DNA of 49,253 nt from an uncultured Chlorobiaceae bacterium (GCA_903920215.1 CAIXLG010000040.1:1-49253); one strand, 5' to 3'; positions 3,325 through 46,896 are shown, numbered from the stretch's first letter. Notes: generated from the sequence alone by a model not told the origin. A program made the numbers and translations.

Positions 3325-3391
3325 ACTTTGTTTGTGTCATTTCGCTTCCTGCTCCACGTTAAGTAACCAATACCACGTGTCAAATATCAAG

Positions 3392-4885
3392 ATGACAGTA
3401 TCGGATGCCCTTAAGCATCAGCTTGAGGAATCTACCGGCAATGACTACAACTGCTGCTACCAGTGCGGTAAATGCACAGCTGGTTGCCCTGCAGGAACAT
3501 TCATGGATAATCCTCCAGCCCGGATAATGCGCCTTGTACAGGCCGGCTATATGGAGGAGGCACTGAAAAGTGATGCCCTCTGGTACTGTCTGGGCTGCCA
3601 GACCTGTACTTCGAGATGTCCCCAGAACATGGAGATAGCTGCTACCATGGACTCGCTTAGAGCCCTGGCACTTGAGAAAAACATTATTTCAGAAGACAAG
3701 GCAAAAAAACTTGTCAATGCCTTTCACCTCTCTTTCCTCAACAACATCCGTAAACACGGACGTCTGGAGGAACTTTCACTCGTCAATAGTTACAAGCTCC
3801 GCACCAGAACCTTTCTTCAGGATGCAGCGTCAGGCGTCAAGATGATCAAGGATGGAAAGATCAATCCAATGCATAGCCTTACCGGAAAGGGCGGCGTAAA
3901 GGCAAAGGATCAGATCGCCAGAATTTTTGAAGCTTCCGAAAAGCCATCTCATTCGTCTGTCACCAAACGTAAGCCGATAAAAAAAGAGTTTAAGCCTAAC
4001 GCTCCCCTCTCCATCAAGCCAGGCATGACCATCGGCTACTATCCCGGCTGTTCACTCAGCGGCACAGCTAAAGAGTTTGATATTTCAGTTAAAAAAATGT
4101 GTTCCCTGCTAGGAATTAAACTGCAGGAAATCGAAGACTGGAACTGCTGTGGAGCAACTTCAGCCCATGCCACCAATCACAAGCTTGCCCTGCTGCTTCC
4201 AGCAAGAAACCAGGCACTTGCTGATGCTCAGGGACTGACCTGTGTCCTTGCCCCTTGCGCAGCATGCCAGAACCGTCAGGTAACCACCCGACTGGCCCTT
4301 ATGGCTTCGGCTGAGCTTCGGGAAGAAGTTCGTTCAATCACCGGAATTGAGCCTACCTGTGCCGCAGAATTTATCGGCGTTACCCAGTTGCTTGAAGCGA
4401 TGGACCCGGAGGAGATTAAGAAAAGAGTAACTAAGCCTCTTACCGGACTTAGTCTTGCTTGCTATTATGGATGCCTGCTGGTTCGACCTATGGAGGCAAT
4501 GGGTTTTGATGATACAGAAAACCCTCTAAAGATGGAGGCAATCATGAGCGCTCTTGGAGCTGCACCTGTCGATTGGGCGTTTAAAATAGAGTGTTGCGGA
4601 GCAGGTCTCACACTGGCCCAGCAACCGCTTGTCGAAGAACTCACACACAAGATTGCCAAAAATGCTGCAATAAACGGTGCTGATGCATTTGTTGTAGCCT
4701 GCCCCCTGTGCCATTCCAATCTTGACATGCGTCAGGAAAGCATGAGAAAAAGGTACGGTGATGTTAAACCGATGCCTGTTTACTATATTTCAGAATTGGT
4801 AGCCATTGCCTGCGGGGCAGATCCATCTGAAGTTGCTGTTGGTAAACATTTTGTTCCTGCTCTCGATCTGGTTTCAAAACTTTAA
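3392..4885 (+). CDS. Fused HdrC-HdrB heterodisulfide reductase subunit (HdrD-like)
   Basis: The protein has 497 residues from ATG 3392 (MTVSDALKHQ); the in-frame ATG at 3332 is less likely given the promoter. The N-terminal HdrC part carries two 4Fe-4S motifs, C22/25/28/32 (CYQCGKCTAGCP) and C66/69/72/76 (CLGCQTCTSRCP). After a linker, the HdrB part has both CCG domains intact: C220, CC252-253, C289/C292, and C361, CC401-402, C437/C440. In HdrB these ligate two non-cubane 4Fe-4S clusters that reduce a disulfide. The order C then B in one chain matches HdrD, but there is no membrane HdrE nearby; hdrA and flx genes follow instead. The role is as the disulfide-reducing arm of a soluble Hdr-Flx complex. 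The substrate is unknown; a DsrC-type trisulfide or disulfide is an analogy from sulfate reducers. Confidence 0.88.
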   Translation: MTVSDALKHQLEESTGNDYNCCYQCGKCTAGCPAGTFMDNPPARIMRLVQAGYMEEALKSDALWYCLGCQTCTSRCPQNMEIAATMDSLRALALEKNIISEDKAKKLVNAFHLSFLNNIRKHGRLEELSLVNSYKLRTRTFLQDAASGVKMIKDGKINPMHSLTGKGGVKAKDQIARIFEASEKPSHSSVTKRKPIKKEFKPNAPLSIKPGMTIGYYPGCSLSGTAKEFDISVKKMCSLLGIKLQEIEDWNCCGATSAHATNHKLALLLPARNQALADAQGLTCVLAPCAACQNRQVTTRLALMASAELREEVRSITGIEPTCAAEFIGVTQLLEAMDPEEIKKRVTKPLTGLSLACYYGCLLVRPMEAMGFDDTENPLKMEAIMSALGAAPVDWAFKIECCGAGLTLAQQPLVEELTHKIAKNAAINGADAFVVACPLCHSNLDMRQESMRKRYGDVKPMPVYYISELVAIACGADPSEVAVGKHFVPALDLVSKL

Positions 4886-4912
4886 ACGTTTACGAGTATT
4901 GCTTTTGGTCTT

Positions 4913-4933
4913 CGATGATCTGAACGATCATCG
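4913..4933 (+). other. Intergenic hairpin between hdrCB and hdrA
   Basis: CGATGATC-tgaac-GATCATCG is a perfect 8-bp stem with a 5-base loop, starting 28 bp after the hdrCB stop. The following TTATTGG is not a convincing U-tract. In a 174-bp gap inside an otherwise tightly packed operon it may be an mRNA processing or attenuation element that adjusts the hdrCB:hdrA ratio, or a weak terminator followed by a second promoter. Confidence 0.45.
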
Positions 4934-5059
4934 TTATTGGCAGGGCTGTCTATGCAATTTCGTGCACAATTGAACATAATGAAACCAGTGCTGTTCTTTC
5001 TTTGCACCATTTACCAGAGGTGCCGTCATTATGGCGATTTCATACTAAATGATTGATTT

Positions 5060-7030
5060 ATGGCGAAAATAGGGGTATTCATTTGTCACTGCGGCGAAAA
5101 CATAGGCGCAAAGGTTGACTGTACCAAACTGGCTGCTGCAATGGGAGAACACCCTGGCGTTGCGGTTTCGGTTGAGTATAAATATTTTTGTTCTGATCCA
5201 GGCCAGGAGAGTGTTAAAAGGGCTATTCGCGACAATAATCTTACTGGTGTTGTCGTTGCTGCATGCTCTCCAAGAATGCACGAAGCCACCTTCCGCAAGG
5301 CATGTGCGGAAGCCGGCCTGAATCCCTATTTATGTGAAATTGCCAACATTCGTGAGCAGTGCTCATGGGTGCATACGGATAATGACCAGGCGACCGAAAA
5401 AGCCATGGACATCACCCGATCAATGGTTGAAAAAGTTAAACGCAATAATAAACTTCAGCCAATTGAGGTGCCTGTAACCCGTCGTGCCCTTGTCATTGGA
5501 GGAGGCATTGCAGGAATCCAGGCAGCACTCGATATTGCCAATGCAGGCCAGGATGTCGTGCTGGTTGAACGCGAACCATCTCTGGGCGGGCATATGGCCC
5601 AATTGTCTGAAACTTTCCCAACGCTCGATTGCTCCCAGTGCATCATGACCCCGCGAATGGTCGAAGCGGCTCAGCACCCGAAAATCAGGCTGCTCACCTA
5701 TGCGGAAATTGAGAGTGTTGATGGTTATATCGGAAACTTCTCGGTCAGGGTACGCATGAAATCGCGATATGTTGATATCAATAAATGTACCGGCTGTGGT
5801 GACTGTATAACAAAGTGTCCAGCAAAAAAAATCTCAAGTGAGTTCGATTGCGGTCTCGGAAAGCGTACAGCCATTTATACCCCTTTTGCCCAGTCTGTTC
5901 CTAATATCCCGGTTATTGACAAGGCAAATTGCATCTATTTCAAAAACGGAAAATGCAAAATCTGTTCGAAAACCTGCCAGTGCGATGCTATCGACTTTGA
6001 TATGCAGGACACCTTCGAGGATATTGAAGTTGGGGCCATTGTGGTTGCGACAGGATTTCAGGTTCAAAATAACACCATGTACGGAGAGTATGGCTACGGA
6101 AAATATCCCGATGTCATTAACGGCCTCCAATTCGAACGTCTCGCCTCAGCAAGTGGCCCTACAGCTGGCAAAATCCTGAGACCTTCGGATGGAGTTGAAC
6201 CGCAAACGGTAGTGTTTATCCAGTGTGCAGGATCTCGAGACCCTTCAAAAGGGGTGCGCTATTGCTCCAAGATCTGCTGCATGTACACCGCAAAACACGC
6301 CATGCTGTATGCCCATAAGGTCCATGGTGGAAAAACCCATATTTTCTATATGGATATCCGTGCTGCAGGCAAAGGATACGACGAGTTCAGCCGAAGGGCT
6401 ATTGAAGAAGACGAAGCAGCTTATTTACGTGGAAGGGTCAGCAAGGTATGGGAGGAAAACGGGAAACTGATGGTCAGGGGCGTTGACACCCTTCTTGGAA
6501 GACCTGTTGAAATAGCTGCTGATATGGTGATACTTGCTACCGCAATTATTGCACAGCCGGATGCAAAAGAGTTTGCCAAAACAATCGGCATCGGTTATGA
6601 TGAATACGGTTTCTACAATGAGGCCCACCTTAAACTGCGCCCAGTTGAATCATCCACCGCTGGAGTGTTCCTCGCAGGAGCCTGCCAGTCGCCGAAAGAT
6701 ATTCCCGATTCAGTTGCCCAGGCATCGGCAACGGCAAGCAAGGTACTTGCTCTTTTCAGCAAGGATATGCTTGAGAGAGAACCGGTTGTTGCCACAAATA
6801 ACGAAGCCACCTGTGCCGGATGCTGGGGTTGCGTTCTTGCGTGCCCTTATAATGCTATCGAGCAGAAAGATATTCTTGACCGTTCCGGAAGGATCATCAA
6901 ACGGGTTGCATCCGTTAATCCCGGCTTATGCCAGGGCTGCGGCACCTGTGTGACCTTCTGCCGCTCGAACAGTCTCGATCTGGCAGGCTTTACTGAAAGA
7001 CAGATTTTTGCAGAAGTGATGGGTCTCTGA
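5060..7030 (+). CDS. hdrA: HdrA-like FAD and iron-sulfur subunit (predicted bifurcating core)
   Basis: The length, 656 residues, is usual for HdrA. An N-terminal Cys-containing domain (VFICHCGENIG, 6-16; CSPRMHE near 69) precedes the FAD-binding loop GGGIAGIQAA (147-156). The CSQC pair (191-194) and a ferredoxin-like insert, C243/246/249/253 (CTGCGDCITKCP) plus a second Cys-rich stretch with CKICSKTCQC, follow. At the C-terminus are two 4Fe-4S motifs, C585/588/591/595 and C624/627/630/634. In methanogens and sulfate reducers HdrA carries the flavin that splits electron pairs between ferredoxin and HdrBC. Here it sits between hdrCB and flxDCBA, as expected for the hub of a soluble complex. The start is at ATG 5060; there is no clear ribosome site. 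Confidence 0.92.
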   Translation: MAKIGVFICHCGENIGAKVDCTKLAAAMGEHPGVAVSVEYKYFCSDPGQESVKRAIRDNNLTGVVVAACSPRMHEATFRKACAEAGLNPYLCEIANIREQCSWVHTDNDQATEKAMDITRSMVEKVKRNNKLQPIEVPVTRRALVIGGGIAGIQAALDIANAGQDVVLVEREPSLGGHMAQLSETFPTLDCSQCIMTPRMVEAAQHPKIRLLTYAEIESVDGYIGNFSVRVRMKSRYVDINKCTGCGDCITKCPAKKISSEFDCGLGKRTAIYTPFAQSVPNIPVIDKANCIYFKNGKCKICSKTCQCDAIDFDMQDTFEDIEVGAIVVATGFQVQNNTMYGEYGYGKYPDVINGLQFERLASASGPTAGKILRPSDGVEPQTVVFIQCAGSRDPSKGVRYCSKICCMYTAKHAMLYAHKVHGGKTHIFYMDIRAAGKGYDEFSRRAIEEDEAAYLRGRVSKVWEENGKLMVRGVDTLLGRPVEIAADMVILATAIIAQPDAKEFAKTIGIGYDEYGFYNEAHLKLRPVESSTAGVFLAGACQSPKDIPDSVAQASATASKVLALFSKDMLEREPVVATNNEATCAGCWGCVLACPYNAIEQKDILDRSGRIIKRVASVNPGLCQGCGTCVTFCRSNSLDLAGFTERQIFAEVMGL

Positions 7031-7085
7031 AAAAGAGCTCTTCTCTCTGCTGAACAACAGAACTTTGCTACCGGAGTTATTGCTG

Positions 7086-7535
7086 ATGAGTGAAACTTTT
7101 GAACCTGAAATCATAGCGTTTGTCTGCACTTACTGTACCTATGCAGGCGCCGACCTTGCAGGAACAAGCAGGTTGAAGTACGCACCTAATGTGCGTATTA
7201 TCCGCCTTCCATGTACAGGGAGAATCAGCCCGATGTTTATCCTTAAAGCTTTGCAGAAAGGCGCTGACGGGGTTCTTATAAGCGGATGCCACCCTGGCGA
7301 CTGCCATTTTACCCATGGAAACTATCATGCACGACGGAGATGGATGGTTTTTCGCGCATTGCTTGACTTTATAGGCATTCCGCCTGAACGGATCAAGTAT
7401 TCATGGATCAGTGCTGCTGAAGGAGTAAAGTTTGCTGAATTTATAAACAGCGTCACTGAAGATATCCGCAAACTCGGTCCTTTTGAGCAGTACACTCATT
7501 TGATCGAGCAAACCCAGGCACCAGCGTCACTATAA
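7086..7535 (+). CDS. flxD: FlxD / MvhD-like [2Fe-2S] electron-transfer subunit
   Basis: The protein has 149 residues from ATG 7086 (MSETFEPEII), 55 bp after hdrA; the in-frame ATG at 7065 is an alternative. It is a single MvhD-type domain with conserved cysteines C14, C17 (CTYCTYAGAD), C43 (PCTGR), C68 and C73 (GCHPGDCHF), the family ligands for a 2Fe-2S cluster. MvhD links a hydrogenase or another electron input module to HdrA. Since no hydrogenase large or small subunit follows, the input here is expected to be the FlxA/B/C NAD(P)H module. Some HdrA proteins carry MvhD as a fusion; here it is separate. Confidence 0.88.
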   Translation: MSETFEPEIIAFVCTYCTYAGADLAGTSRLKYAPNVRIIRLPCTGRISPMFILKALQKGADGVLISGCHPGDCHFTHGNYHARRRWMVFRALLDFIGIPPERIKYSWISAAEGVKFAEFINSVTEDIRKLGPFEQYTHLIEQTQAPASL

Positions 7536-7545
7536 AAAATACGTA

Positions 7546-8376
7546 ATGAGTATCGAGGAACAATACAGAACGAGAGCAAAGGAACTTCTTTCAGGCGGTG
7601 CCGTCAAAATGGTTATCGGCTATGGCAAAGGCTCTAACGCGAAACGTCGTCGACCGATTTTTATCAGCTCGGCGGATGAGGTTGAGCGGCTTGTGCTTGA
7701 TGATGCCTGCATAACCAACCTCTCAGGATATCTTGTCAGTGAAGGCCTCCTGAGCGATGAAAAGCGCGTTGCTGTCTTTCTCCGCCCTGAAGGAATACGC
7801 GCCATCAATATCCTTGCAGCGGAATCGCAGCTTGATGCCGAACAGATTGTTATTTTTGGTTTTGATGTCGCTGGAAATGAAGTCACGGCATTGAAAGGAA
7901 TAAATGTCGAAGAGTTTTCCGATATCATTGATTCAATCAAGGAGGGTGCTCCTGAAGCAGCAGAAGAAGAGCTGTTTGAGAAGATTGAAAAAATGAGTCC
8001 TCAGGAGCGCTTTTCATTCTGGCAGAAGGAGTTTGCCAAGTGCATAAAATGCTACGCCTGCCGCCAGGCATGCCCCATGTGCTACTGCCGTCGGTGCATT
8101 GTCGACAGCAATCAGCCGCAATGGGTCAATACCTCGTCACATACACTCGGCAATTTTGAATGGAATATCGTTCGGGCATTTCACCTTTCTGGACGATGTG
8201 TCGAATGCGGCAACTGTGATCGGGCATGTCCTGTCAATATTCCACTTCGTCTTATTAACCACCGTATGGCGGAGGAGGTACTGGGGGCATTCGATCACTT
8301 TGCCGGCACGAGCAAAACCCAGGAACCAGTGCTTGCCAGTTTTAAAAAAGACGATTCCGAGACATTCATTCTCTAA
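7546..8376 (+). CDS. flxC: FlxC-like 4Fe-4S protein
   Basis: The 276-residue protein follows flxD by 10 bp. The N-terminal half has no metal motif. The C-terminal half has a Cys-dense block from C166 (CIKCYACRQACP) running on into CYCRRC (C179, C181, C184), and a second 4Fe-4S motif at C218/221/224/228 (CVECGNCDRACP). This two-cluster arrangement matches the FlxC iron-sulfur subunit of the FlxABCD complex of sulfate reducers and relatives of the F420H2-dehydrogenase/hydrogenase beta subunits. Its inferred role is to relay electrons from the FlxA flavin through FlxB toward FlxD and HdrA. The extra cysteines in the first block may support an additional cluster. The exact subfamily name rests on gene order as much as on sequence. 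Confidence 0.78.
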   Translation: MSIEEQYRTRAKELLSGGAVKMVIGYGKGSNAKRRRPIFISSADEVERLVLDDACITNLSGYLVSEGLLSDEKRVAVFLRPEGIRAINILAAESQLDAEQIVIFGFDVAGNEVTALKGINVEEFSDIIDSIKEGAPEAAEEELFEKIEKMSPQERFSFWQKEFAKCIKCYACRQACPMCYCRRCIVDSNQPQWVNTSSHTLGNFEWNIVRAFHLSGRCVECGNCDRACPVNIPLRLINHRMAEEVLGAFDHFAGTSKTQEPVLASFKKDDSETFIL

Positions 8377-8389
8377 GTAACAAATTTGT

Positions 8390-9403
8390 ATGACAAAAAT
8401 CCTCTTCAGCGATAAACTTGACAATTGTGTCGAACGATGGAAATCAGCCGGATTAACCGTTATTGGTCCTGTACAAAGATCTAATATATCGACTTACGCC
8501 GCTATTGAACATGCTGCCGAATTAGATTTCAGCCTTGTTCTGCCAGACCGATCGATCAAAGATCTTTTCTTCCCTCAGAGTGAGCCGATGTTGCGTTATA
8601 CAATAAAAAAAGAGTCCATCGACACCGATGAGTGCCTGCCGCCCTCCGGGCCGAGAATTATCTTTGGTGCCCGACCTTGCGATGCTTCAGGAATGGCGAT
8701 TGACGACCCCCTTTTTGGGTGGGACTATAAGGATGAATACTGGTTTCAGCGACGCAATGAAACAGTTATTGTGACCATTGCATGCACAAAAGCAGATGAT
8801 TTCTGCATGTGCACATCCCTAAAAATGGCACCCGACAGCACGAAAGGCTCCGATATCCTGCTTCGGCCGCTTGCCGGCAACAAAGGTTGGCAGGTTGAGG
8901 AACTGACTGACCGCGGACGGGAAGCCTTCAAAACCATAGCTGATATCCTGCAGGAGAGCTCAGACCCTGCAGCTCCTTTGGCAGTCGTTGAGAAGAAGTT
9001 TGACCTCGATGCCTGTGTCACATGGCTGCAGAACCCTGAAAATTTTGAGAGCAGATTCTGGAAAGAGATATCGATGCGCTGCATCGGCTGTGCTTCATGT
9101 ACCTATCTTTGTCCGACCTGTCACTGCTTTGACATCCAGGATGAAGGTGATACATACACTGGTATCAGAAGAAAAAACTGGGACAGTTGCTCTTTTGCCC
9201 TCTTTACCATGCACACTTCAGGTCACAACCCCCGGTCGACACAATCTGCACGATGGCGCCAGCGAATCATGCACAAATTCAATTACTTTCCAGGCAAGTT
9301 CAGCGTGAACAGCTGCAGTGGATGCGGGCGTTGCTCACGCCAGTGCCCGGTTGACATGGGAATTACCGAGACTTTACAAGAGATATCAAAATTATCGCTG
9401 TGA
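8390..9403 (+). CDS. flxB: FlxB / sulfhydrogenase beta-subunit-like 4Fe-4S protein
   Basis: The 337-residue protein starts 13 bp after flxC. It has the HydB/AsrA-like layout: a long N-terminal domain containing IIFGARPCDASG (near 99), C-x2-C-x2-C-x3-C at 231/234/237/241 continuing to C244 and C246 (CPTCHC), and a second motif C309/312/315/319 (CSGCGRCSRQCP). In Pyrococcus sulfhydrogenase and anaerobic sulfite reductase, this subunit relays electrons between the flavoprotein and the catalytic part. Here the flavoprotein gene overlaps its end by 4 bp. No NiFe hydrogenase large or small subunit gene is found nearby, which supports the Flx assignment over a hydrogenase. Confidence 0.85.
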   Translation: MTKILFSDKLDNCVERWKSAGLTVIGPVQRSNISTYAAIEHAAELDFSLVLPDRSIKDLFFPQSEPMLRYTIKKESIDTDECLPPSGPRIIFGARPCDASGMAIDDPLFGWDYKDEYWFQRRNETVIVTIACTKADDFCMCTSLKMAPDSTKGSDILLRPLAGNKGWQVEELTDRGREAFKTIADILQESSDPAAPLAVVEKKFDLDACVTWLQNPENFESRFWKEISMRCIGCASCTYLCPTCHCFDIQDEGDTYTGIRRKNWDSCSFALFTMHTSGHNPRSTQSARWRQRIMHKFNYFPGKFSVNSCSGCGRCSRQCPVDMGITETLQEISKLSL

Positions 9404-10266
9404 CAGAACACAACCACAACACACAACAGAACATCTACAAGCCGGCCATCATGAAAATAGTTGGCCGCCACGACGAGGCGCCAGGCGTGAGAACCATGAA
9501 ACTCGAATTTCAGCACCCTGCTGACCATGAGATTTTCAAGGAAACATACCGCACCGGTATGTTTGGCCTCTACGGCGTTTACGGTGAGGGAGAGAGCACC
9601 TTCTGTGTCGCAAGCCCTGAAACCCGCAAGGATTATATCGAATGCACCTTTCGTCAATCCGGCAGGGTGACCTCGGCATTGGCGAATGCTGATATCGGCG
9701 ACCTCATCACCTTCAGGGGCCCCTATGGAAACCGCTTTCCCATTGAGGAGTTCCATGGCAAAAACCTTCTTTTCGTTTCAGGAGGAATTGCCCTGCCGCC
9801 AACGCGGAGCGTTATTTGGTCGTGCCTCGATCAGCGTGAAAAATTCGGCAAAGTCACCATTGTATACGGAGCCCGTAGTGTGGCTGATCTGGTATACAAG
9901 CATGAACTTGAGGAGTGGCAGGAACGGAGCGATGTCGATCTTGTATTGACCGTTGATCCAGGGGGGGAATCACCCGACTGGAAAAACAGGGTTGGCTTTG
10001 TGCCAACAGTGCTTGAGGAAGCTGCACCATCTCCGGATAACTGCATTGCGGTGATTTGCGGGCCACCCATCATGATCAAGTTCACTCTGATCTCGCTCAA
10101 AAAGCTTGGTTTCGATGAGTCAAACGTTTATACAACGCTTGAAAACCGAATGAAATGCGGACTTGGAAAATGCGGACGATGCAATGTCGGGTCGGTCTAT
10201 GTGTGCAAGGAAGGGCCTGTCTTTACAGCGGCGGAAGTATCTCTCATGCCTGCAAGTGACTTATAA
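9400..10266 (+). CDS. flxA: FlxA / HydG-like FAD-NAD(P)H oxidoreductase subunit
   Basis: The protein has 288 residues with a GTG start at 9400 whose last two bases are the first two of the flxB TGA (GTGA), so translation is coupled. It is a ferredoxin-NADP reductase fold: a flavin domain followed by FRGPYGNRFP (about 107-116), a nucleotide-binding loop VSGGIALPPTRS (about 126-137), a later VICGPPIMIK, and a C-terminal 2Fe-2S site at C253, C258, C261 and C269 (CGLGKCGRCNVG). It is the expected NAD(P)H entry point of the complex. Its last codons overlap the convergent murB-like gene by 6 bp, so the operon ends here without room for its own terminator. Confidence 0.88.
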   Translation: MTEHNHNTQQNIYKPAIMKIVGRHDEAPGVRTMKLEFQHPADHEIFKETYRTGMFGLYGVYGEGESTFCVASPETRKDYIECTFRQSGRVTSALANADIGDLITFRGPYGNRFPIEEFHGKNLLFVSGGIALPPTRSVIWSCLDQREKFGKVTIVYGARSVADLVYKHELEEWQERSDVDLVLTVDPGGESPDWKNRVGFVPTVLEEAAPSPDNCIAVICGPPIMIKFTLISLKKLGFDESNVYTTLENRMKCGLGKCGRCNVGSVYVCKEGPVFTAAEVSLMPASDL

Positions 10267-11883
10267 GAGAGTGATTGGATAAAAATGATCCGGCTGATGA
10301 AAATCGGCCGGGCCTGTTGATTCATCCCACCAGGGAAACAACCCGTACTCTCCCCTGCCTGAAGATACGCAGCACTGCATTGCAATAGTCTTCCCGTTTA
10401 TGAATGGCTCCAGCAGCTTATAGGAAAATTCCATCCCGAAATATCCCTCACTCTTCACCATGTTGATATCCTCCATCCATCGCTCTTCTGAAAGGATTGC
10501 ATACCCGTTCGATCTTTTTCTTGGAGCATCGAATCGCAGTGCGACCCAGTTCCCTTCAGGAGTCATTTCAAATTCCAGATAACCAGCAGAGGAATCGGGA
10601 TGAGCAATAAACAGTTCTGAAACGCCATACTGCCAGAGTCCCTCAGTAAACATACCTGGAGGAGTACCAGAAGGCGGTATCAATGAAAAAAGAGCGGAAT
10701 TGCTGCAACGGGTGGTCCACCGAAAAAAAGGGGCTTGAGGTGCAGCTATGGCATCATGTATCGAACGCAGTTGTTCAACTGCCACAAAAACTCCGGGAGG
10801 AATTTCCCTGTCGGCACACCTGTAACCAACAAAAGAGCCCTCAATAAGCACCTGCGGAAAAAACAGCTCCGGAATTTCCATCTTCTGGCTAAACTCCTGT
10901 GGTGACCATAGAAGACCGGCCCAGCCTTTTGAAGGGTCTTGATCATCCGAAACACTCTTTACCCCGCATGAAGCAAGAAGTTTTTGGTCAAACAAGCCGA
11001 TACACTGTACTTCAAGATCAAGTTGAACGCCCGCTTCATTCTGCGCAGCAATTTTCATCTGTGCGGCAAGTCCAAGCACCTCTGTTGCGGTAGCCCCTCC
11101 TTTGTTGAAAATAAAGTTGGCATGGTGCCCGCTGACCATTGCTCCCCCTTCACTGCGGCCTTTAAAACCAAGTTCTTCAAAAATAGTACCGCTTGAACGA
11201 CCTGCAGCATAGTTGTTCTTAAAGGTCGAACCGCAGCTCGGAAAATCGAAATGATGCTTTTTTGTGCGTTCGTCCAAATATCCGTCCATCTTGCATTTGA
11301 TCTCATCTTTCGTGCTTGTCTCGGGAAAACGAAGAAGGACAGCAATGACAATTTCCGGATTATCCATCAGCGAAGTATGCTTGTAACCATGAAAAACCTC
11401 ATCAGGGGTCTGCCAATGCAATCGTCCATCGATCGTCATAGTCTGAACTCCGGTTGTAACGGCAGAGATTTCACCTCCGAAGCAGCGGGCATTCATTCTG
11501 ACCGTCGATCCTATCTGACCGGGCAGGCGGTAAAGCCATTCACCTCCTTTCCTCCCGCATGTAAGAAGCTCTTCAGCAATAAGGGTATTGTCTGCACCAG
11601 ACTCGCAAAAAAGTTCATCATCGGATATCCAGAACATCCGTTGCATACGGTCTAAAGAGATGACAATACCTGGGTATAAGGAATCGGAAAAGAGGATATT
11701 ACTTCCTTTTCCCATGATGGCAAGAGGCAGTTGATACTCCCTGTTCCACAGGAGAAGATCGGCAAGTTCTGCAGGAGTTCCGGGATGAACAAGGAAACGA
11801 GCTCTGCCGCCTATCCCGTAATATGACTTTGAAGCCAGAGAAACATCACATTCAAAAGGACAGGGAAGGGATAACCCAGGCAT
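10261..11883 (-). CDS. murB: UDP-N-acetylenolpyruvoylglucosamine reductase fused to a CBM9/DOMON-like domain
   Basis: The length is 540 residues, whereas ordinary MurB has about 300. Residues 1-300 are a complete type II MurB: YYGIGGRARFLV (21-32), the FAD loop GKGSNILFSD (58-67), R129 and N131 before GGEIS, the proton-donor Ser in CGSTFKN (S219) and the C-terminal Glu in LDLEVQCIG (E291). It catalyses the NADPH-dependent step to UDP-MurNAc in peptidoglycan synthesis. Residues of about 305-540 have patterns of family 9 carbohydrate-binding/DOMON-like modules: YGVSELFIAHP, YLEFEMTPEGNWVALRF, and a terminal HQPDHFYPI. The fusion frame is uninterrupted. It is not next to other mur genes. The second domain assignment is less certain than MurB. 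It converges on flxA with a 6-bp overlap. Confidence 0.82.
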   Translation of the reverse strand: MPGLSLPCPFECDVSLASKSYYGIGGRARFLVHPGTPAELADLLLWNREYQLPLAIMGKGSNILFSDSLYPGIVISLDRMQRMFWISDDELFCESGADNTLIAEELLTCGRKGGEWLYRLPGQIGSTVRMNARCFGGEISAVTTGVQTMTIDGRLHWQTPDEVFHGYKHTSLMDNPEIVIAVLLRFPETSTKDEIKCKMDGYLDERTKKHHFDFPSCGSTFKNNYAAGRSSGTIFEELGFKGRSEGGAMVSGHHANFIFNKGGATATEVLGLAAQMKIAAQNEAGVQLDLEVQCIGLFDQKLLASCGVKSVSDDQDPSKGWAGLLWSPQEFSQKMEIPELFFPQVLIEGSFVGYRCADREIPPGVFVAVEQLRSIHDAIAAPQAPFFRWTTRCSNSALFSLIPPSGTPPGMFTEGLWQYGVSELFIAHPDSSAGYLEFEMTPEGNWVALRFDAPRKRSNGYAILSEERWMEDINMVKSEGYFGMEFSYKLLEPFINGKTIAMQCCVSSGRGEYGLFPWWDESTGPADFHQPDHFYPITLL

Positions 11884-26090: not shown

Positions 26091-29000
26091 CTAAAAGGTG
26101 AGTACTGATCCATTTTGTACCTGTTTTTTCATGATATCCACCCATCCGGTACCAGAAAGTATTTCAGCAAGCTCAACAACAATATGCCGAGGTTCTATAC
26201 CAAGATCGAGATTCCTTCCAAGTCCCTGCACACATGATGGACAATTGGTTAATATGACTGCGTTTTCTTTTCCATGCATAACTGCGGTAATGGCCTCTCT
26301 TTTGCGGTGCAGCATGGAATCGGTAATATCGGGTCGTGACAATGCCAGTGTACCAGCCTCTGAACAGCAATGCGGCACTGCATTTACATTCCCAAAACCT
26401 CCAATAGTGCTAAGCGTCTGACGCGCTTTACCGGAAAGAGAATCATGGCAGGGAGCATGGTAAAGGTATTCTCTATTGCCATCCAGCTTCAGACCTTTTT
26501 CAAGAGCATATGCTGCAATATCAATAATTTGCCCTCCGAAAAGCTTGCCGGTTTCAATAGCATCAAGTCCCTCCATACAGGTACCACATGTGACAACGCA
26601 AGCATCAAAATCAAGATAGGAAAACATCTCCCTTATCTGACTGAACATCACGGTATTTCGAAGGACAATACTTGAATACTGATCTGTCTTTGCATTGACA
26701 TGAGCAGGAAATCCACAGCAGAGAAACGGTGGCGGCAGCACAATCCTCACACCAAGCTCAAGCAGTACATGAATTGCCGCCATCGAGATTGAAGAGTTCA
26801 TGCGCTCGGAACCACAGCCCGGAAAATAAAAAACATTACTTTTCACCTCTCCTGATGGCTCAAAAACAATCACCTGGTCAGAAGCACACTCTGGAAGAAT
26901 ATCGCGCAGGGTCTCTTCGGGCACTGGTGGTACGGGCGAACGCAGAAGCCTTAAAGGATAAAGATCCGGCGAATCAAGTTCCGGCTGCATTGGTGCTGAA
27001 AGTTTGTTCCCTGCACGCTGAAACGCACCGCCGATCCTGAGCACCGTTCTGCGGAATATCGCATTAAAAACCGGGGAACGACTATCGAGATATCGCAAGG
27101 TCAGTTCTGTGATGGGTGAAGAGTGTTTGTACCCCCATTCTGAAAGAATTTCACGCTCCAGCACCGAAACCTCACCGCTGTCGATATCCACCGGACAAGG
27201 CTTAAGGCATTTATGGCAAATTGTACAGTGATCGGCAACCTCTTCCAGCCACTTCAGTAACTCAAAATCAGTAGAACGCTCACGCTGGGCATCAAAAAGC
27301 AGTGCTTCAATCAATGAGCCAATCGCAAGATTCTTGTTTCTCGGATGGTAAAACATTCCCCGAGAGGGATAGTAAACACAGCAATCAGTCTTGCACTTAC
27401 CACATCGTATGCAGTAGTCAACCTTTTTTGAAAGCTCTTCAATCTGGGCTCGCCTGAGTATATGCGCCTCCAGTTCAAGCAAATTGAACGACGGAGTAAA
27501 AATGTGGTCAAGAGCCTCATAATCCTCAAGCTTTCCGGGATTCATAATCCCTTCAGGGTCGACCTTGCGACGATATATTGAAAGTTGTTCAACAATAGCC
27601 GGATCGAGGTACTTCAGCTTGGTTACACCGATACCGTGCTCTCCCGACACGACGCCGCCGAGTGAAACAACTTTTTCCATGACATTGTCAATCACCTTGT
27701 CGGCTCGTTCAAGCATCGGCCTGTCATTGGAAAGCACCGGTACATTGACATGAACATTGCCATCGCCGGCATGCATGTGTGTAGCAAGCACTATACGCCT
27801 GTCGCGAACATACGTATATGCTTTTTCAAAGGCCTCCTGCATTTCAGGATACCCCTGCACCAGTTCGCCAAGTTCATTGCCAAGTTCTTGAACAATTTCA
27901 AGAGAACGCAGTGAATCTTCAGGCGCCAGTAAAATTTTTTCATCGAACAGACGGCAAAGCTCAAGTCCTGCTGGAATTTTAGAGGCAAACCGCCCACCAT
28001 CTTCGTTAACGTCTGTCGTAGCAAAAATAGTGCGTGAACGTTCTACAAAGCAATGCTGCGCATATCGTTCCTCAGTAATATTGAGCTCGTCGATAAATCG
28101 GGAAAAAACGGCAAGCGCTTCAAGAGGAATAACAATGTCCTCATTGAGCTTAAACGCATTGGTCCGCCTGGCAATAGCACCAAGTTTTTTTCGATCAGCC
28201 CAGAAACGAACGGCATCAGCATTGTCTCTGGCCAGAAACATCATGGTATTTGGATGATGCTTGAGGAGAGTTTGTAAACGTTCAATACCGCTCTCAACCT
28301 CTCTGGATGAATGACCGGCTATATCGATGAGAAGCACGGCTTTCGGAATCTGAGCCCTTGGTGCCTTTACCTTGTAGTCGATAGCCCTTATATATTCATC
28401 ATCAAAATGCTCCAGCGCCAGAAGAGCTTCTTTATTCTCCGAATACAGCGGAAATATTTTAGACAGCTCAAGAATCACCCGGCTTGCCTCATCCATGTCA
28501 GGCCCGAAAAACTCAAGACAGAGGGTTCTCTTTTCAGGATACTTTGGATAAAGCACAAAAACAGCCGAGGTAATCACCCCGTCAGTTCCCTCTTTCTGAA
28601 GGCCCGGCACTCCACCAAGCGCTTTATTGGTAATATCTTTCCACAGTCCTTTTTTACGGATATCGGTTCCAAGCAACTCAATGCGATCAATTCGCTTGCC
28701 CGATTGATTCCAAACCTCGAAAGTAACAGTATCCTCATGCAGGATTTTCCTGAGGCGGTGATCAACACGCTTTACCGTCCAGTTTTCACCGGACGGCATT
28801 GCCATACGCCACTCAAGGAGGTTGTCTATGCAGGTACCCCATCGTACAGCCATCTTTCCGCCGGCATTTTCAGCAATATTGCCACCGATGGTGCAAGACC
28901 ATTCACTTGTCGGGTCGGTAGCAAATACAAGCCCATGCTCATCAGCCTCCTCCATAGCCTTTTCAGTGACCACTCCAGCTTCAACTTCAATGACTGAAGC

Positions 29001-29747
29001 CTGGGATATCTGACCGTTTTCAAGCTGAAAATCCCGAACCGAGATACCCTTGATGTGGTTCATTTTTTCCATGTTGATGATCACACACCTCGATCTCAAG
29101 GGTACAGCTCCACCGGTGAGCCCCGTTCCTGCACCGCGGGGAATGATATGGAGGCCAAGCCCGGCAATTGCTGTAATGAGAGGTGCAACCTGCGACTCCT
29201 GATCTGGGGTAACAACAGCCACTGGAAGATGAAGCCTCCAGTCAGTAGCATCAGTAGCGTGAGCTGCAAGGGAAAATGGGTCAAAAAGGACATTTTTAAC
29301 TCCTGCAACCGCTCCCAGTTCCCTCTTCATACGACGGCGAAGTTCGGGTGTTTTTTCAACTGCAGAGCGGAAACGCTCAAGTTGCTCTCGCACCGCCACA
29401 ACAATAGCTGAAACCCGGATTTCACCATTTGCCATTTCAGAGATGATATCAAGCTCGTGAAATGCCCTTTCAAAAAGACGCTTTCGACGAGCGGCAGAAT
29501 CAACAAGTTCCTGAAAAAGGTAGGGATTACGGCGATGAATAAGAATCTCTCCGATAATACCCATGAGCAAACGTGCCGAGCGGCCTGTAACCCGCAGATC
29601 ACGCAGTTCGTCAAGAATCCGAACGATATTCGGTCCCAGCAGAAACGATATCGCCTGCCTGTCGCCGGCAGAGGTATAATTAAACGGTATTTCGCGGGGG
29701 GTGCCCGTTATTGGTTTCACTCTATAAATGCCTGTTCTTATGGTCAT
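26091..29747 (-). CDS. FAD-linked oxidase / Fe-S oxidoreductase single-chain dehydrogenase (YdiJ/GlcD-GlcF type)
   Basis: The 1218-residue protein combines three parts. The N-terminal half is a GlcD-type FAD oxidase: PRGAGTGLTGGAVPL, TIGGNIAENAGG and, toward its end, HMHAGDGNVHVNVP and SGEHGIGVTKLKYLDP. A ferredoxin-like part follows with CIRCGKCKTDCC and CTICHKCLKPCP. The C-terminal part has two CCG domains, with PGCGSE...LCCGFPAH...CGTC and APCHDS...CCSEAG...CPSC. Family members oxidise 2-hydroxyacids such as D-lactate, glycolate or D-2-hydroxyglutarate and pass electrons to the membrane quinone pool; the substrate here is not determined. At 1218 residues it is longer than E. coli YdiJ (1018), with the extra sequence mainly in the first 180 residues. 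A monocistronic gene. Confidence 0.88.
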   Translation of the reverse strand: MTIRTGIYRVKPITGTPREIPFNYTSAGDRQAISFLLGPNIVRILDELRDLRVTGRSARLLMGIIGEILIHRRNPYLFQELVDSAARRKRLFERAFHELDIISEMANGEIRVSAIVVAVREQLERFRSAVEKTPELRRRMKRELGAVAGVKNVLFDPFSLAAHATDATDWRLHLPVAVVTPDQESQVAPLITAIAGLGLHIIPRGAGTGLTGGAVPLRSRCVIINMEKMNHIKGISVRDFQLENGQISQASVIEVEAGVVTEKAMEEADEHGLVFATDPTSEWSCTIGGNIAENAGGKMAVRWGTCIDNLLEWRMAMPSGENWTVKRVDHRLRKILHEDTVTFEVWNQSGKRIDRIELLGTDIRKKGLWKDITNKALGGVPGLQKEGTDGVITSAVFVLYPKYPEKRTLCLEFFGPDMDEASRVILELSKIFPLYSENKEALLALEHFDDEYIRAIDYKVKAPRAQIPKAVLLIDIAGHSSREVESGIERLQTLLKHHPNTMMFLARDNADAVRFWADRKKLGAIARRTNAFKLNEDIVIPLEALAVFSRFIDELNITEERYAQHCFVERSRTIFATTDVNEDGGRFASKIPAGLELCRLFDEKILLAPEDSLRSLEIVQELGNELGELVQGYPEMQEAFEKAYTYVRDRRIVLATHMHAGDGNVHVNVPVLSNDRPMLERADKVIDNVMEKVVSLGGVVSGEHGIGVTKLKYLDPAIVEQLSIYRRKVDPEGIMNPGKLEDYEALDHIFTPSFNLLELEAHILRRAQIEELSKKVDYCIRCGKCKTDCCVYYPSRGMFYHPRNKNLAIGSLIEALLFDAQRERSTDFELLKWLEEVADHCTICHKCLKPCPVDIDSGEVSVLEREILSEWGYKHSSPITELTLRYLDSRSPVFNAIFRRTVLRIGGAFQRAGNKLSAPMQPELDSPDLYPLRLLRSPVPPVPEETLRDILPECASDQVIVFEPSGEVKSNVFYFPGCGSERMNSSISMAAIHVLLELGVRIVLPPPFLCCGFPAHVNAKTDQYSSIVLRNTVMFSQIREMFSYLDFDACVVTCGTCMEGLDAIETGKLFGGQIIDIAAYALEKGLKLDGNREYLYHAPCHDSLSGKARQTLSTIGGFGNVNAVPHCCSEAGTLALSRPDITDSMLHRKREAITAVMHGKENAVILTNCPSCVQGLGRNLDLGIEPRHIVVELAEILSGTGWVDIMKKQVQNGSVLTF

Positions 29748-35689: not shown

Positions 35690-36355
35690 TTAGAGGCCGG
35701 TCAGGAAGTGGCGGGTTTTGGGGGGGAGGGATTGGAGGTATGATTTGATGTAGTCGATGTGGACTGTGGAGGGAGGGTCGGTTGCGGGGCGCCATGTTGA
35801 TACCCGGACCATGAGGTTGTTGGGAATGTCGCCGATGAGGATTCGAGGGACTTCCTTGAATCGCTGTGTCATGGGGATGTTGTCCTGTAGGGCTGAGTCA
35901 TGGATTCCTCCGGTTACTCTCCAGTAGATTACCTGTTCGATCATATCTCCGTAGCGACCTTCGAAGGTAACGACATCGAGATTTTGGCCGCCCACCATCA
36001 ATGTAATGTTTTTGGGGGTTGAGACGGTAAAGCCTTGGGAATTATAGCAGACTTCCTGTGGGTGCCCTGCCTGGTGGAAACCGTCGTAGCTCCAGGTCAT
36101 GACTATTGAGGCTGCTTTGCCATCGGCACGTTTATAGATTTGAGTAACGACCAGATCGTATGGGTTGTTCTGTGTACTGGGAACTACGGATGAACCGGAG
36201 ATAGCCTGCCAGCCTTGGGGATGCTGCTTTATGATGCTTTGCAGGTCTGGTTTTGGGCCCTTGACCGGGTGCTGCCTTATCTCCACAAATATCTCTGAGG
36301 AAATGAGGATAAGGCAAAACGCTAGAGCAAGAAGAGAGTATTTAGTCAGCCGCAT
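35690..36355 (-). CDS. epsI: EpsI family exosortase-associated protein
   Basis: The 221-residue protein has an N-terminal membrane anchor ([19 protein letters not shown]). The EpsI / DUF3485 pattern follows, with [15 protein letters not shown] (about 95-109; conserved Cys) and a later YWRVTGG. EpsI is frequently encoded with, or fused to, exosortases; its precise function is unknown. It overlaps the exosortase gene by 14 bp and ends the operon close to the heptamer tract. The location supports a role at the membrane in exopolysaccharide or protein sorting. Confidence 0.82.
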
Positions 36356-37205
36356 GTGCGCTCCCCTTCTCAGGCTTTACAAGCGAGGATGCAAAAAGCA
36401 GCCCCCTGTCAATGAGTGTGAGAAGCAGGAGTGCCAGAATAAAAGCCACAACACCAATGGTCTCATGGAAAATGCTCTGGGCAAACCAGTCTCCAACGTA
36501 CCAGGTGGCAAGTACCACAAGCATCACCCTCATAAAATTGGTAAGCACTGCAACTGGAATGATACTGACCACCATCACGGCAATATGCCAGGGTTTGCGA
36601 TTAACCCCCTCACTGAGGTAGAGAATGGAAAGTGCCGTCAATGAAAAAATGGAGTTCATCCCTGAACAGTCTTTGGTCACAGTGGCACTGTATTGGCCAA
36701 AATAGAGAGTGACACCATTTGCGACAACAGGAAAAATTGTTGCGCTGAGCACTTTGGCTGAAAGCGCAGCTAACGCAACTGCAAGTTCAGACGACAGGAG
36801 CGAAGGCCCGATTGAGCCAAGGATCACTATCACAATTCCGGCAAATGCAATGAAGAGTGCTGAACGAAGATAAGCGGAAGGGGCAAAAGCAGCAACGAAT
36901 CCTGCTGCAATAAAAAAAAGTCCTAAAACTTCAACAACCAGTGAGGGGGCCACTCCACCAGCTACAGAGAAACAAGATCCAAGGACAAAAAGGAGAGATC
37001 CCAACATTGGATGACCCAATGCGCTACTGCGAAAGGTTTCGAAAATGCTTTTGCGCTCCATCCATAACACTGCCAAAAGTGTCGGGTACAACAAGAGCAG
37101 ATCGTTTTCAATCGACAACGAGAGAGTGTACTCTACTGCAGAATGCACCAGAACAGCAACAAAAAGCAGCCAGGGAAACCATGACACCTGCACTTTGATG
37201 CTCAT
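36342..37205 (-). CDS. Exosortase
   Basis: The protein has 287 residues from ATG 37203-37205 (MSIKVQVSWF); the upstream extension is Cys/Phe-rich and belongs to the shadow of the epsD-like gene. About eight membrane segments are predicted. The catalytic Cys-Arg-His triad is intact: C180 (TKDCSGMNS), R226 (NFMRVMLVV) and H247 (FHETIGVV). Exosortases cleave and process proteins with a PEP-CTERM signal. The start overlaps the epsD-like stop (ATGA). The neighbouring substrate gene is broken (38578-39355), so a substrate elsewhere is needed for function. Subtype (XrtA, B, C or other) was not determined. Confidence 0.88.
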   Translation of the reverse strand: MSIKVQVSWFPWLLFVAVLVHSAVEYTLSLSIENDLLLLYPTLLAVLWMERKSIFETFRSSALGHPMLGSLLFVLGSCFSVAGGVAPSLVVEVLGLFFIAAGFVAAFAPSAYLRSALFIAFAGIVIVILGSIGPSLLSSELAVALAALSAKVLSATIFPVVANGVTLYFGQYSATVTKDCSGMNSIFSLTALSILYLSEGVNRKPWHIAVMVVSIIPVAVLTNFMRVMLVVLATWYVGDWFAQSIFHETIGVVAFILALLLLTLIDRGLLFASSLVKPEKGSAHAAD

Positions 37206-38581
37206 AAACCGATAAGGCGCTTTGTCGCAATTACAACAGCAACAAGACAAAAAGAAAAGAAAAGGATAGGCAGAAAACGCATATTCTGCGTCAACCTCAT
37301 AAAGAGATTGAGAGAAAAGATGTAAGTGAAAACAACACCAAGTAAAAGACCGGAAAGTACCGATACACCAACAATCCATTCCGGAGTTTTTCCCCATATA
37401 AGCATCATCTGATATCCAAGAGTGAAAAGTGCTCCAGCAGCAACAAAGAAAAGAAAATACCGTATATAAACAGGTGGTTTATATACCGGATACAATATTT
37501 CATCATCATCTTCACTATGGCCTTCAGGTGCAACAGAGTTAGCCTTCTTCGATTTATGCGACATAAGAGGCTGCCAGAACTTGCCAAGAAAGAGCCGCAT
37601 CCAGAATGTCAGCAACAACACTGAAAACGTGTACGCTGCTCCCAGGGCTACAGCAAGCTCAATCGTGAGTGATTCGTTTTCGGCAACCATTCCGGAATCA
37701 ACTGTCGGCAGTGGAACCAATTGCCCTGACCCCTTTTTGGCAGCTGCGCCAGGAGCATACGCACCGAAATAGGTGATTTTGGATGCGTCAACAACATTCT
37801 TCATTTTTTTGCCGAATTCCTGATTACGGAGTTGTGCTGTTGTTATATTTCGAGCGGTCTGCAGAGCTGAACCACCCACAAGAGGAATAGGAAGAGCACT
37901 CTTCAGCATCAACACCATGGCAAACTTATCCTCAACACGCATAACAATCGGCACATTAGGCTTGGCATTGCTCATAATACGAGCAATAGCCGGCTGCATC
38001 TGATCGGTTGACTGCGTTTGCGTAACCTGCTGAAACTGAAGCTTTTTAGCTTTGATCGAATCCACCAGATGCGAAAGCGAGGCACCATTGCCCGCAGCAA
38101 CATTAAGCGACTGAAGAAACGGGACATCGACAACAGGCATCAAAACCTGCTCATAGACAAGCAGCTTACGCTCACCGAAAATAAGGGGATTTTGTTTAAC
38201 AACACCTTGGAGCGCTTCATCAGAAAGAGGCTTAATTGAAGCAAGCATACCTTTTTCAGCCATTCCAGCAAGAACCTGACGACGTGCTTCGTGCATTGTA
38301 AGCACAAACTCAGGTGAACGATCCAGATTCTCAGCCGCAGCCTTCTGGGCAAGCAGCTCACTCCGAACCAAACCAGCTAAAATAGCCCGTTGCTGATTGC
38401 TCCTAATCTCCTCACTGACACCGGCAGTAGCAGTGCGCTCATAAAGAGCTGTTACTTCACGCTGGGTAATTTCAATACCATTCACAGTAGCTGCAACACG
38501 TCCAGCATCTTTCTTCTCAGTCTCAGGGGAACACCCTGCAATAGTAAAGACTAAAAGAAAAAGGTAAAAAAAAGAGTTCAC
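37202..38581 (-). CDS. EpsD-like peptidyl-prolyl isomerase lipoprotein with C-terminal membrane domain
   Basis: The 459-residue protein starts at GTG 38579-38581. Lipobox IAGC is near residue 17. The next ~290 residues resemble the SurA/EpsD-type foldase core (VAATVNGIEITQREVTALYERT, VRSELLAQKAAAENLDRSPEF). Residues of about 300-459 contain four membrane segments (LTIELAVALGAAYTFSVLL, YIRYFLFFVAAGALFTLGY, WIVGVSVLSGLLLGVVFTY, LPILFFSFCLVAVVIATKRL), which is not usual for EpsD lipoproteins. It overlaps the exosortase start (ATGA) and is itself overlapped by the PEP-CTERM pseudogene stop. The PPIase activity is inferred from family; the full canonical PpiC catalytic domain is not evident. Confidence 0.7.
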   Translation of the reverse strand: MNSFFYLFLLVFTIAGCSPETEKKDAGRVAATVNGIEITQREVTALYERTATAGVSEEIRSNQQRAILAGLVRSELLAQKAAAENLDRSPEFVLTMHEARRQVLAGMAEKGMLASIKPLSDEALQGVVKQNPLIFGERKLLVYEQVLMPVVDVPFLQSLNVAAGNGASLSHLVDSIKAKKLQFQQVTQTQSTDQMQPAIARIMSNAKPNVPIVMRVEDKFAMVLMLKSALPIPLVGGSALQTARNITTAQLRNQEFGKKMKNVVDASKITYFGAYAPGAAAKKGSGQLVPLPTVDSGMVAENESLTIELAVALGAAYTFSVLLLTFWMRLFLGKFWQPLMSHKSKKANSVAPEGHSEDDDEILYPVYKPPVYIRYFLFFVAAGALFTLGYQMMLIWGKTPEWIVGVSVLSGLLLGVVFTYIFSLNLFMRLTQNMRFLPILFFSFCLVAVVIATKRLIGL

Positions 38582-39355
38582 GCAATAAATCCTGATATTT
38601 CTTGAGACTTCTGTAAACTAAACACTACAAAAAGACCACCAATACCCATAAGAATAAAAGTTGCAGGTTATAGAACCGGTGAGAAACCTGTGGATGGCGA
38701 TGAAGATAATTGCAGAGCGTTGATAAGTCCTCTAACACTAGACCCAGCTATACCGGATGGCGCATAAATCAACCATAAGACTCCCTGGCTATCGGTTTTA
38801 ACCGTCAAGCTTACAAGTTATTACCTTTTATAAAACTTGAACTACCAGTAGAACTTGAAGCAGTTACTGAAGAATAAGTCGTTGAGCCTATAATATTAGA
38901 TATTTTCAGCCTATCGTAAACTACATTCGCCTCGCCCTGAGTATAATATATACAGATAGCATTCAGTATTTGCTGTCAGCCCTGAAAGCTTCATTGATAG
39001 ACTGGAGGTAGAAGATATATATCCTCCCGCGAAGTCTCCATAAGCACCTTCCAAAAATGCGTTTTGAGCATCACCAATACCGGAAGAACTCGCCGCACTG
39101 TAACCAATTTTCACTGTTGACACAACGTTTGATGCATCGCGAAGATAAGCTGACTATACTGAGTGTGAAGTTTTTGTACCAGAGTACCCACCTGACGTAT
39201 TCTACTCACCGCCATTATTCAAGAAATCAAGAGGGCTATGATAGGTGTAATTTATACATGCAAATTGCAAATTAATCAACTCAGCCATTGCCTTAACTGA
39301 CCAAAAAAGCATCACCACGGCATATACCAGAAGGGAAAAAAACTAATCTTTTCAT
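38578..39355 (-). pseudogene. Decayed PEP-CTERM protein gene
   Basis: A good start (GGGAGGG ribosome site, ATG 39353-39355) is followed by a frame that breaks repeatedly. Readable pieces on the minus strand are KAMAELINLQFACINYTYHS, DASNVVSTVKIGYSAASSSG, GIGDAQNAFLEGAYGDFAGG, LTVKTDSQGVLWLIYAPSGI, and the end PATFILMGIGGLFVVFSLQ. In the last piece the expected V-P-E-P is GTT-CTA-TAA-CCT (V-L-stop-P), with the stop at 38668-38670. The TGA overlaps the next gene's GTG start (GTGA), so the ancestral coupling is still visible. Internal stops at several places and at least two frameshifts make a functional product unlikely. It was evidently an exosortase substrate, secreted, with a beta-rich mature region. 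Confidence 0.8.
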
Positions 39356-39608
39356 TTTATCCCTCCCCATTTCGTTATCTACTTGAATTCATTCTTTCAA
39401 GTTACGAATTTTTTTTTAACCTACACACCACAACCAAGTCCATTCATTGTGCATATTATTTTTTCCCCCACGCCCAATCCAGCACAAAATACGTTCATCG
39501 TTACACATACAACTCTGAATAACCATCAGATCCCGCGAATAGTTTCACAATGACGATCGTTTGCATGATAAAAAAAAGAATGTTGTAGTCGCAAGCTGGA
39601 AGAGTTTC

Positions 39609-39890
39609 TCAGAATGACGAGCGTACAGCCCGAGCGCTTTGGAAAATCGGCTCAAAGACAGGCGAGACAAAATTTGAACCGGCTGAGGATAAATGACCGG
39701 AATCAATGTAAAAAAGCTGATTTTCCTCGAAAACACGATACCTCCCGTTATCAATGAGCATGGAATCAGGATAGACAATCCTGACTCTGGGGTTCACTGC
39801 AAGTTTTTTAAAAACCGCAAGAGATCCATCGTTATACTTGAGATATTCGACTCTTGTTGGTAATAAATCTTGTAATCGAAAATCAAGACA
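39609..39890 (-). pseudogene. SGNH-domain acyltransferase, C-terminal fragment
   Basis: The minus-strand frame gives PRVRIVYPDSMLIDNG, YRVFEENQLFYIDSGHLSSAGSN and FVSPVFEPIF, the C-terminal catalytic Asp/Gly-His-Leu-Ser-x-x-Gly block of acyltransferase-3/SGNH fusion proteins that O-acetylate polysaccharides. There is no N-terminal part: the preceding gene ends at 39883 and this frame just emerges from it. It is an inactive relic, consistent with local decay of this segment along with the PEP-CTERM pseudogene. The ancestor was probably a polysaccharide acetyltransferase of the adjacent locus. Confidence 0.7.
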
Positions 39891-43218: not shown

Positions 43219-43265
43219 TTATAGTGACTCCGAAAACAGGCTTCTAATCATGACACATCGATAGA

Positions 43266-43895: not shown

Positions 43896-43952
43896 ATCTA
43901 TCACAAAGCTAGAGGGATGTACCTTGTCTCTTTAAGTAAAATGATAACCTAT

Positions 43953-44939: not shown

Positions 44940-44966
44940 GAATATTTTAATTATTATTTTATTAAA

Positions 44967-46735: not shown

Positions 46736-46740
46736 TTTTT

Positions 46741-46860
46741 TTCTCCAATGAAACTCCCTGCCGCAAGCAGCGGGGTATCTGTTTTTAGAAATACTAACTT
46801 TCGCCGCAAGCGGCGGGGAATATGACTCGTAAAGATTAAATCTTTATGGGATATACTCCC
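46741..46860. repeat. REP-like palindromic elements
   Basis: Two related units, CCGCAAGCAGCGGGGTAT (46761-46778) and CCGCAAGCGGCGGGGAAT (46804-46821), each form a small hairpin (GCCGC-aa-GCGGC at 46803-46814 is perfect). Between them and the next gene lies the palindrome TAAAGATTAAATCTTTA (46830-46846). This sits in a 161-bp intergenic gap of a capsule operon. The pattern resembles extragenic REP sequences, mobilised elsewhere by RAYT transposases; no such gene is in the window. Confidence 0.65.
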
Positions 46861-46896
46861 AGCAGCTTATTCCATGGTTGTCGATTAAAATAATTA

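Follow-up and report, generated by a model that had tools for sequence, protein, structure and literature searches.

The stretch of DNA analysed here, 49,253 nucleotides in length and referred to as the window, is contig C40 of an uncultured Chlorobiaceae genome (G000; 3.04 Mb, 99.73% complete, 1.38% contaminated). Positions 3377–10266 of its forward strand carry six same-strand genes in the order hdrCB-hdrA-flxD-flxC-flxB-flxA, constituting an Hdr-Flx cluster. The first-pass annotation of this DNA had described the same six genes, order and strand, with HdrC and HdrB joined in one polypeptide and with intact cofactor cysteines in every subunit, and had assigned them to an NADH-linked Hdr-Flx complex in a phototroph. 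The protein families, motifs and gene order examined here support that assignment, and the source genome encodes the FMO antenna protein (E = 1.6e-226), which confirms that the host is a phototroph. The boundaries given earlier, 3392 and 10266, are retained at the downstream end only, since the start codon of hdrCB is probably GTG at 3377 rather than ATG at 3392: the former is kept in 51 of 66 Chlorobiaceae loci and is better conserved than the methionine at 3392, present in 34 of 66. The region surrounding this start (3365–3391) is itself strongly conserved, reading TATACCACGTGTCAAA in many Chlorobium loci and including the palindrome CACGTG, and may be regulatory.

The hdrCB gene (3377–4885) encodes an HdrC part followed, after a linker of ~100 residues, by an HdrB part, with stretches matching TIGR03290 and TIGR03288 and two PF02754 matches. 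Numbered from position 3392, the HdrC part has two [4Fe-4S] motifs within residues ~19–116 and aligns to chain 5odc_C of the PDB, and the HdrB part has two CCG domains within residues ~215–497 and aligns to 7bkb_B and 5odc_B. The AlphaFold model of HdrCB has a mean predicted local distance difference test score of 61.6 and is weak in the HdrC part and linker; the HdrB half alone was therefore used for structural comparison, and its predicted fold superposes on 5odc_B and 7bkb_B with template-modelling scores of 0.84–0.87 normalised by target length. Downstream, hdrA (5060–7030) matches the HdrA2 model NF040770 over residues 3–653 (E = 6.7e-232) and 5odc_A over its full length (E = 5.2e-204); its product would bind flavin adenine dinucleotide (FAD) and multiple [4Fe-4S] clusters and would be the site of bifurcation. 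The flxD gene (7086–7535, ATG start) encodes an MvhD/FlpD-like [2Fe-2S] protein (PF02662, E = 7.2e-53), the putative joint between the NADH module and HdrA. It is followed by flxC (7546–8376), an iron-sulfur subunit recognised by two ferredoxin motifs, Fer4 dicluster matches and its conserved position in the cluster, and by flxB (8390–9403), a sulfhydrogenase-beta-like iron-sulfur subunit (NF040833, E = 3.5e-41; PF17179, E = 4.6e-31). The last gene, flxA (9400–10266), starts at a GTG that overlaps the flxB stop and encodes an NAD(P)- and FAD-binding diaphorase with a C-terminal [2Fe-2S] site (PRK08345, E = 2.5e-63; PF00175; PF10418), whose nearest solved structure is sulfhydrogenase gamma, 9nez_C, and which is also related to PyrK and NqrF.

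Conservation of the cofactor ligands was counted in 58–66 Chlorobiaceae sequences per gene. The two CxxCxxCxxxC motifs of the HdrC part (C22/25/28/32 and C66/69/72/76), the two five-cysteine CCG sets of the HdrB part (C220/252/253/289/292 and C361/401/402/437/440) and the five four-cysteine sets of HdrA, including the unusual CX12CX3CC set C389/402/406/407, are essentially invariant. Five cysteines of FlxD are kept in 60/60 sequences and those of the two FlxC ferredoxin motifs in 59/59, while the two ferredoxin motifs of FlxB and the four-cysteine [2Fe-2S] motif of FlxA occur in essentially all sequences. The ligand set of a FlxABCD-HdrABC complex is thus present, comprising the CCG sites, the HdrA clusters and FAD fold, the FlxD [2Fe-2S] site and the FlxA FAD/NAD fold, and the near invariance of the ligand cysteines makes the complex look functional. 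Two further observations concern cysteine positions. HdrCB of Chlorobiaceae has additional cysteines that are rare or missing in outgroup loci (C21, 65/66 versus 0/13; C237, 66/66 versus 3/13; C474, 62/66 versus 1/13), and hdrA of Thermosyntropha lipolytica (L104, near 12333), otherwise intact, has an in-frame TGA at the position of Cys194 of the window HdrA, which is a probable selenocysteine codon.

The distribution of the cluster was assessed in 86 Chlorobiaceae genomes and 12 other genomes of the same order. A strong HdrCB match is found in 84 of the 86, the two genomes without one being incomplete (66% and 87%), and FlxB is found in 83, whereas the 12 non-Chlorobiaceae genomes have no close match to either. 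Examination of other Chlorobi genomes, proposed in the first-pass annotation, reveals the six-gene order in every named Chlorobiaceae locus long enough to show it, and this recurrence excludes a chance arrangement. The upstream genes (SecA-like, PurL-like and others, named by eye from sequence) are common to Chlorobium and Chlorobaculum, an indication of vertical inheritance; together these data indicate that the Hdr-Flx cluster is a fixed, vertically inherited trait of Chlorobiaceae. On the downstream side, a reverse-strand gene (10261–11883) encoding MurB domains followed by ~240 residues without a Pfam match adjoins flxA in most Chlorobiaceae loci.

Fusion of HdrC to HdrB is as such already known from methanogen HdrD. 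In Chlorobiaceae hdrCB is a single open frame without internal stops in 66/66 loci, whereas the HdrC/HdrB junction holds at least one stop codon in each of 13 outgroup loci. Match coverage had suggested that the outgroup proteins are fused as well, an interpretation that was rejected on finding that the matches cross stop codons at the junction. Among a wider sample of 394 Bacteroidota genomes, an uninterrupted full-length HdrCB match occurs only in Chlorobiaceae, and 17 others have HdrB alone or matches with stops. By these comparisons the fusion is a family trait of Chlorobiaceae within the sets searched, and of a simple kind that would require loss of a stop and addition of a linker. The fusion is intact in G020. 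In the single-contig, Chlorobaculum-like genome G016 (L128, G016:C1:765900-767800), hdrCB is split near residue 103, where a run of six A is followed by a one-base difference; this may reflect a frameshift mutation, a sequencing error or slippage.

HdrA, HdrB, HdrC and FlxA–D occur together, HdrC and HdrB as one polypeptide, without hydrogenase subunits, which is the gene content of a FlxABCD-HdrABC complex. The complexes of Bilophila wadsworthia and Desulfovibrio vulgaris have the same subunits and likewise lack hydrogenase subunits, and the Bilophila order hdrCBA-flxDCBA is identical (PMC12125255); the Chlorobiaceae system differs in its HdrC-HdrB fusion, in its phototrophic host and in that DsrC, the partner proposed for those complexes, is missing from the source genome and 23 other Chlorobiaceae. 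The same order, but with hdrC and hdrB as two genes, also occurs in Thermosyntropha, Planctomycetes, Dysgonomonas and Desulfovibrionaceae. The nearest clusters found outside the family, in Dysgonomonas (L108) and Planctomycetes (L106), are 66–68% identical in HdrA and 59–63% in FlxA and share the order, but have hdrC and hdrB as separate adjacent genes in genomes without DsrC and without BshC. The Endoriftia and Escarpia tubeworm symbionts are, like Chlorobiaceae, autotrophs using the reductive tricarboxylic acid (TCA) cycle and possess Hdr-Flx (PMC6315080, PMC11636981); their genes are interleaved with the cycle genes kor and tfr, whereas the Chlorobiaceae cluster stands alone. The methanogen HdrABC-MvhAGD complex (5odc) is similar in its HdrA, HdrB and HdrC parts, its MvhD-like FlxD counterpart and its cluster ligands, but has MvhAG where Chlorobiaceae have the NAD(P)-binding FlxABC, and its acceptor is CoM-S-S-CoB. 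An HdrABC-MvhAGD hydrogenase complex is ruled out here, as no MvhA or MvhG subunit is linked to hdrA, and so is an HdrDE-type membrane reductase, as hdrA and the flx genes directly follow hdrCB and the cluster has no cytochrome gene.

No hydrogenase gene lies within or adjoining the cluster, as the first-pass annotation had stated. The NiFe hydrogenases of the source genome are encoded away from the cluster, on contigs C203 and C32, and the C32 locus in addition bears the sole FlxB paralogue, of 24% identity. Five near-complete Chlorobiaceae genomes (G022, G026, G029, G030 and G039) have Hdr-Flx without any NiFe hydrogenase match, so that strict co-occurrence of the two, which the annotation had named as evidence against its proposal, is not observed and hydrogenase coupling is ruled out. 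Judged by gene content, hydrogenase is dispensable for the retention of Hdr-Flx in Chlorobiaceae.

We consider it likely that these genes encode a soluble HdrABC-FlxABCD complex, common to Chlorobiaceae, that reversibly bifurcates or confurcates electrons among NADH, ferredoxin and a disulfide that need not be DsrC. In such a complex FlxA would take a hydride from NADH, as the presumptive nucleotide in preference to NADPH, or return it, and HdrA's FAD would receive the electrons by way of FlxB, FlxC and FlxD. There electron pairs would be split or joined. One branch would lead to ferredoxin through the ferredoxin-like domain of HdrA; the other would cross the HdrC part and reach the pair of noncubane clusters in the HdrB part, where the disulfide would be reduced. 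With the two parts fused, HdrC and HdrB would be held at a 1:1 ratio. The complex could thereby act as a reversible valve among the ferredoxin, NADH and thiol pools, most likely oxidising NADH in the dark and reducing NAD+ in the light when ferredoxin is highly reduced. General energetics suggest that dark breakdown of stored carbon would favour the NADH-oxidising direction. For the corresponding Bilophila/Nitratidesulfovibrio complex, a published description has electrons passing from NADH to ferredoxin and DsrC, reversibly, and the D. vulgaris complex is said to operate in both directions (PMC12125255).

Several points weigh against this interpretation. Green sulfur bacteria reduce ferredoxin by light. 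They also have a ferredoxin-NAD(P)+ reductase, according to work cited in PMC6282198, and Nfn, C. tepidum being among the organisms listed (PMC6085437), and given these routes the need for an additional complex is not evident. Sequence does not establish a preference for NADH, no biochemistry of the Chlorobiaceae complex was found in the literature searched, and the one-base difference described above breaks hdrCB in a genome assembled as a single contig. In vitro proof of bifurcation for any Flx-Hdr complex was likewise not found in accessible literature, which would be compatible with a plain, non-bifurcating NADH:disulfide or NADH:ferredoxin conduit. We regard such a conduit as quite unlikely, since HdrA can be aligned over its whole length with its counterparts in the solved methanogen complexes and keeps the CX12CX3CC set (C389, C402, C406, C407).

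The first-pass annotation had suggested a DsrC-like disulfide linking the complex to sulfur oxidation, together with a check for co-occurrence with dsrC and dsrAB, and here the data depart from it. The source genome has no match to the DsrC profile (PF04358), and the isolate Chlorobium ferrooxidans DSM 13031 (L067, with a contig position matching G024), which has the cluster, likewise lacks DsrC. In the source genome no DsrA exceeds the cut-off, the single weak match to the DsrA model (2.9e-24) being, from its score, probably a shorter sulfite-reductase-like protein, and a PF02754 search, expected also to catch DsrK, returned other proteins only. In total, 24 cluster-bearing Chlorobiaceae genomes, including these two, have no DsrC match. 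As some of the 24 are incomplete or broken at dsr (G017 has a dsrA fragment and G072 a dsrB-like match at a contig start), we rely on C. ferrooxidans, for which a published gene table shows no DsrAB (PMC5498476), and on nine genomes at least 95% complete with no DsrC and weak DsrA matches (G000, G028, G033, G042, G051, G052, G053, G064 and G071). DsrA has been reported in 71% of Chlorobium metagenomic operational taxonomic units (Garcia et al., PMC8125076). A near sister of the source genome, G061, carries dsrABC, and the absence of dsr genes from the source genome is possibly a recent loss or an assembly gap. Conversely, G086, outside Chlorobiaceae, has two DsrC-family genes (G086:C1:758913 and 1932130) with neither a DsrA match nor Hdr-Flx, indicating that DsrC and Hdr-Flx are decoupled in both directions. 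Co-occurrence thus rules out DsrC as an obligatory partner. That DsrC or its trisulfide is nonetheless the partner, tying sulfur oxidation to NADH and ferredoxin, is decidedly improbable in view of these genomes and of its absence from six of seven outgroup genomes with Hdr-type clusters, although the majority of Chlorobiaceae encode DsrC and its interaction with Hdr-Flx has been shown in D. vulgaris, as cited in PMC10504309.

A low-molecular-weight thiol is another candidate. N-methyl-bacillithiol is the redox-responsive thiol of C. tepidum (PMC6282198), and BshC is present in 84/86 Chlorobiaceae, including the source genome, while Bdr/YpdA, the reductase that usually acts on bacillithiol disulfide, exceeds the cut-off in 0/86 and is found only in G086 and G088, both outside the family and without Hdr-Flx. 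Chlorobiaceae Hdr-Flx might then act on (N-methyl-)bacillithiol disulfide in place of the missing bacillithiol disulfide reductase and so connect the thiol pool with NADH and ferredoxin. This assignment is tentative and on the unlikely side: 10 of the 12 non-Chlorobiaceae genomes lack both Bdr and Hdr-Flx though BshC is present in nearly all, which means that the two enzymes do not replace each other one for one, and a thioredoxin-type reductase could fill the same role. BshC is moreover absent from all seven outgroup genomes with Hdr-type clusters, which rules out bacillithiol as a universal Hdr-Flx partner and makes any such role family-specific at best. The fuller proposal, in which a bifurcating N-methyl-bacillithiol disulfide reductase has replaced Bdr/YpdA and couples the thiol pool to photochemically reduced ferredoxin and NADH, in Dsr-less iron oxidisers as well, appears unlikely.

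With the outgroups lacking bacillithiol synthesis and nearly all lacking DsrC, neither can be the general acceptor, and gene distribution argues that the ancestral acceptor was neither of the two or that the acceptor is lineage-dependent. The HdrB part may act on another small redox protein or enzyme common to all Hdr-Flx lineages, such as a thioredoxin-like or fumarate-reductase-type partner, a possibility of some weight that still falls short of probable. Endoriftia co-expresses Hdr-Flx with genes of the reductive TCA cycle, and for tubeworm symbionts a model involving a thiol:fumarate reductase has been proposed (PMC6315080, PMC11636981); against this, no partner gene is conserved within or directly beside the cluster across Chlorobiaceae.

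Elsewhere in the window, a reverse-strand gene (26091–29747) encodes a 1218-residue protein with DUF3683, an FAD-linked oxidase and a CCG iron-sulfur part, and reverse-strand exosortase, ATP-grasp and glycosyltransferase genes (36342–48986) form an exopolysaccharide-type cluster.

The Hdr-Flx cluster is thus genuine and complete and belongs to a known kind; what appears new is that it is fixed across a phototrophic family, that the fusion is specific to this family and that the cluster persists in genomes without DsrC, DsrAB or hydrogenase. The last of these shows that the current model of Hdr-Flx partners is not general. A highly conserved redox complex that is near-universal in Chlorobiaceae has been little discussed in openly searchable literature, and its presence raises the question of which disulfide serves Hdr-Flx in a phototroph living on Fe(II). 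Its identity matters for understanding how green sulfur bacteria keep ferredoxin, NADH and thiols in balance in the light and in the dark.

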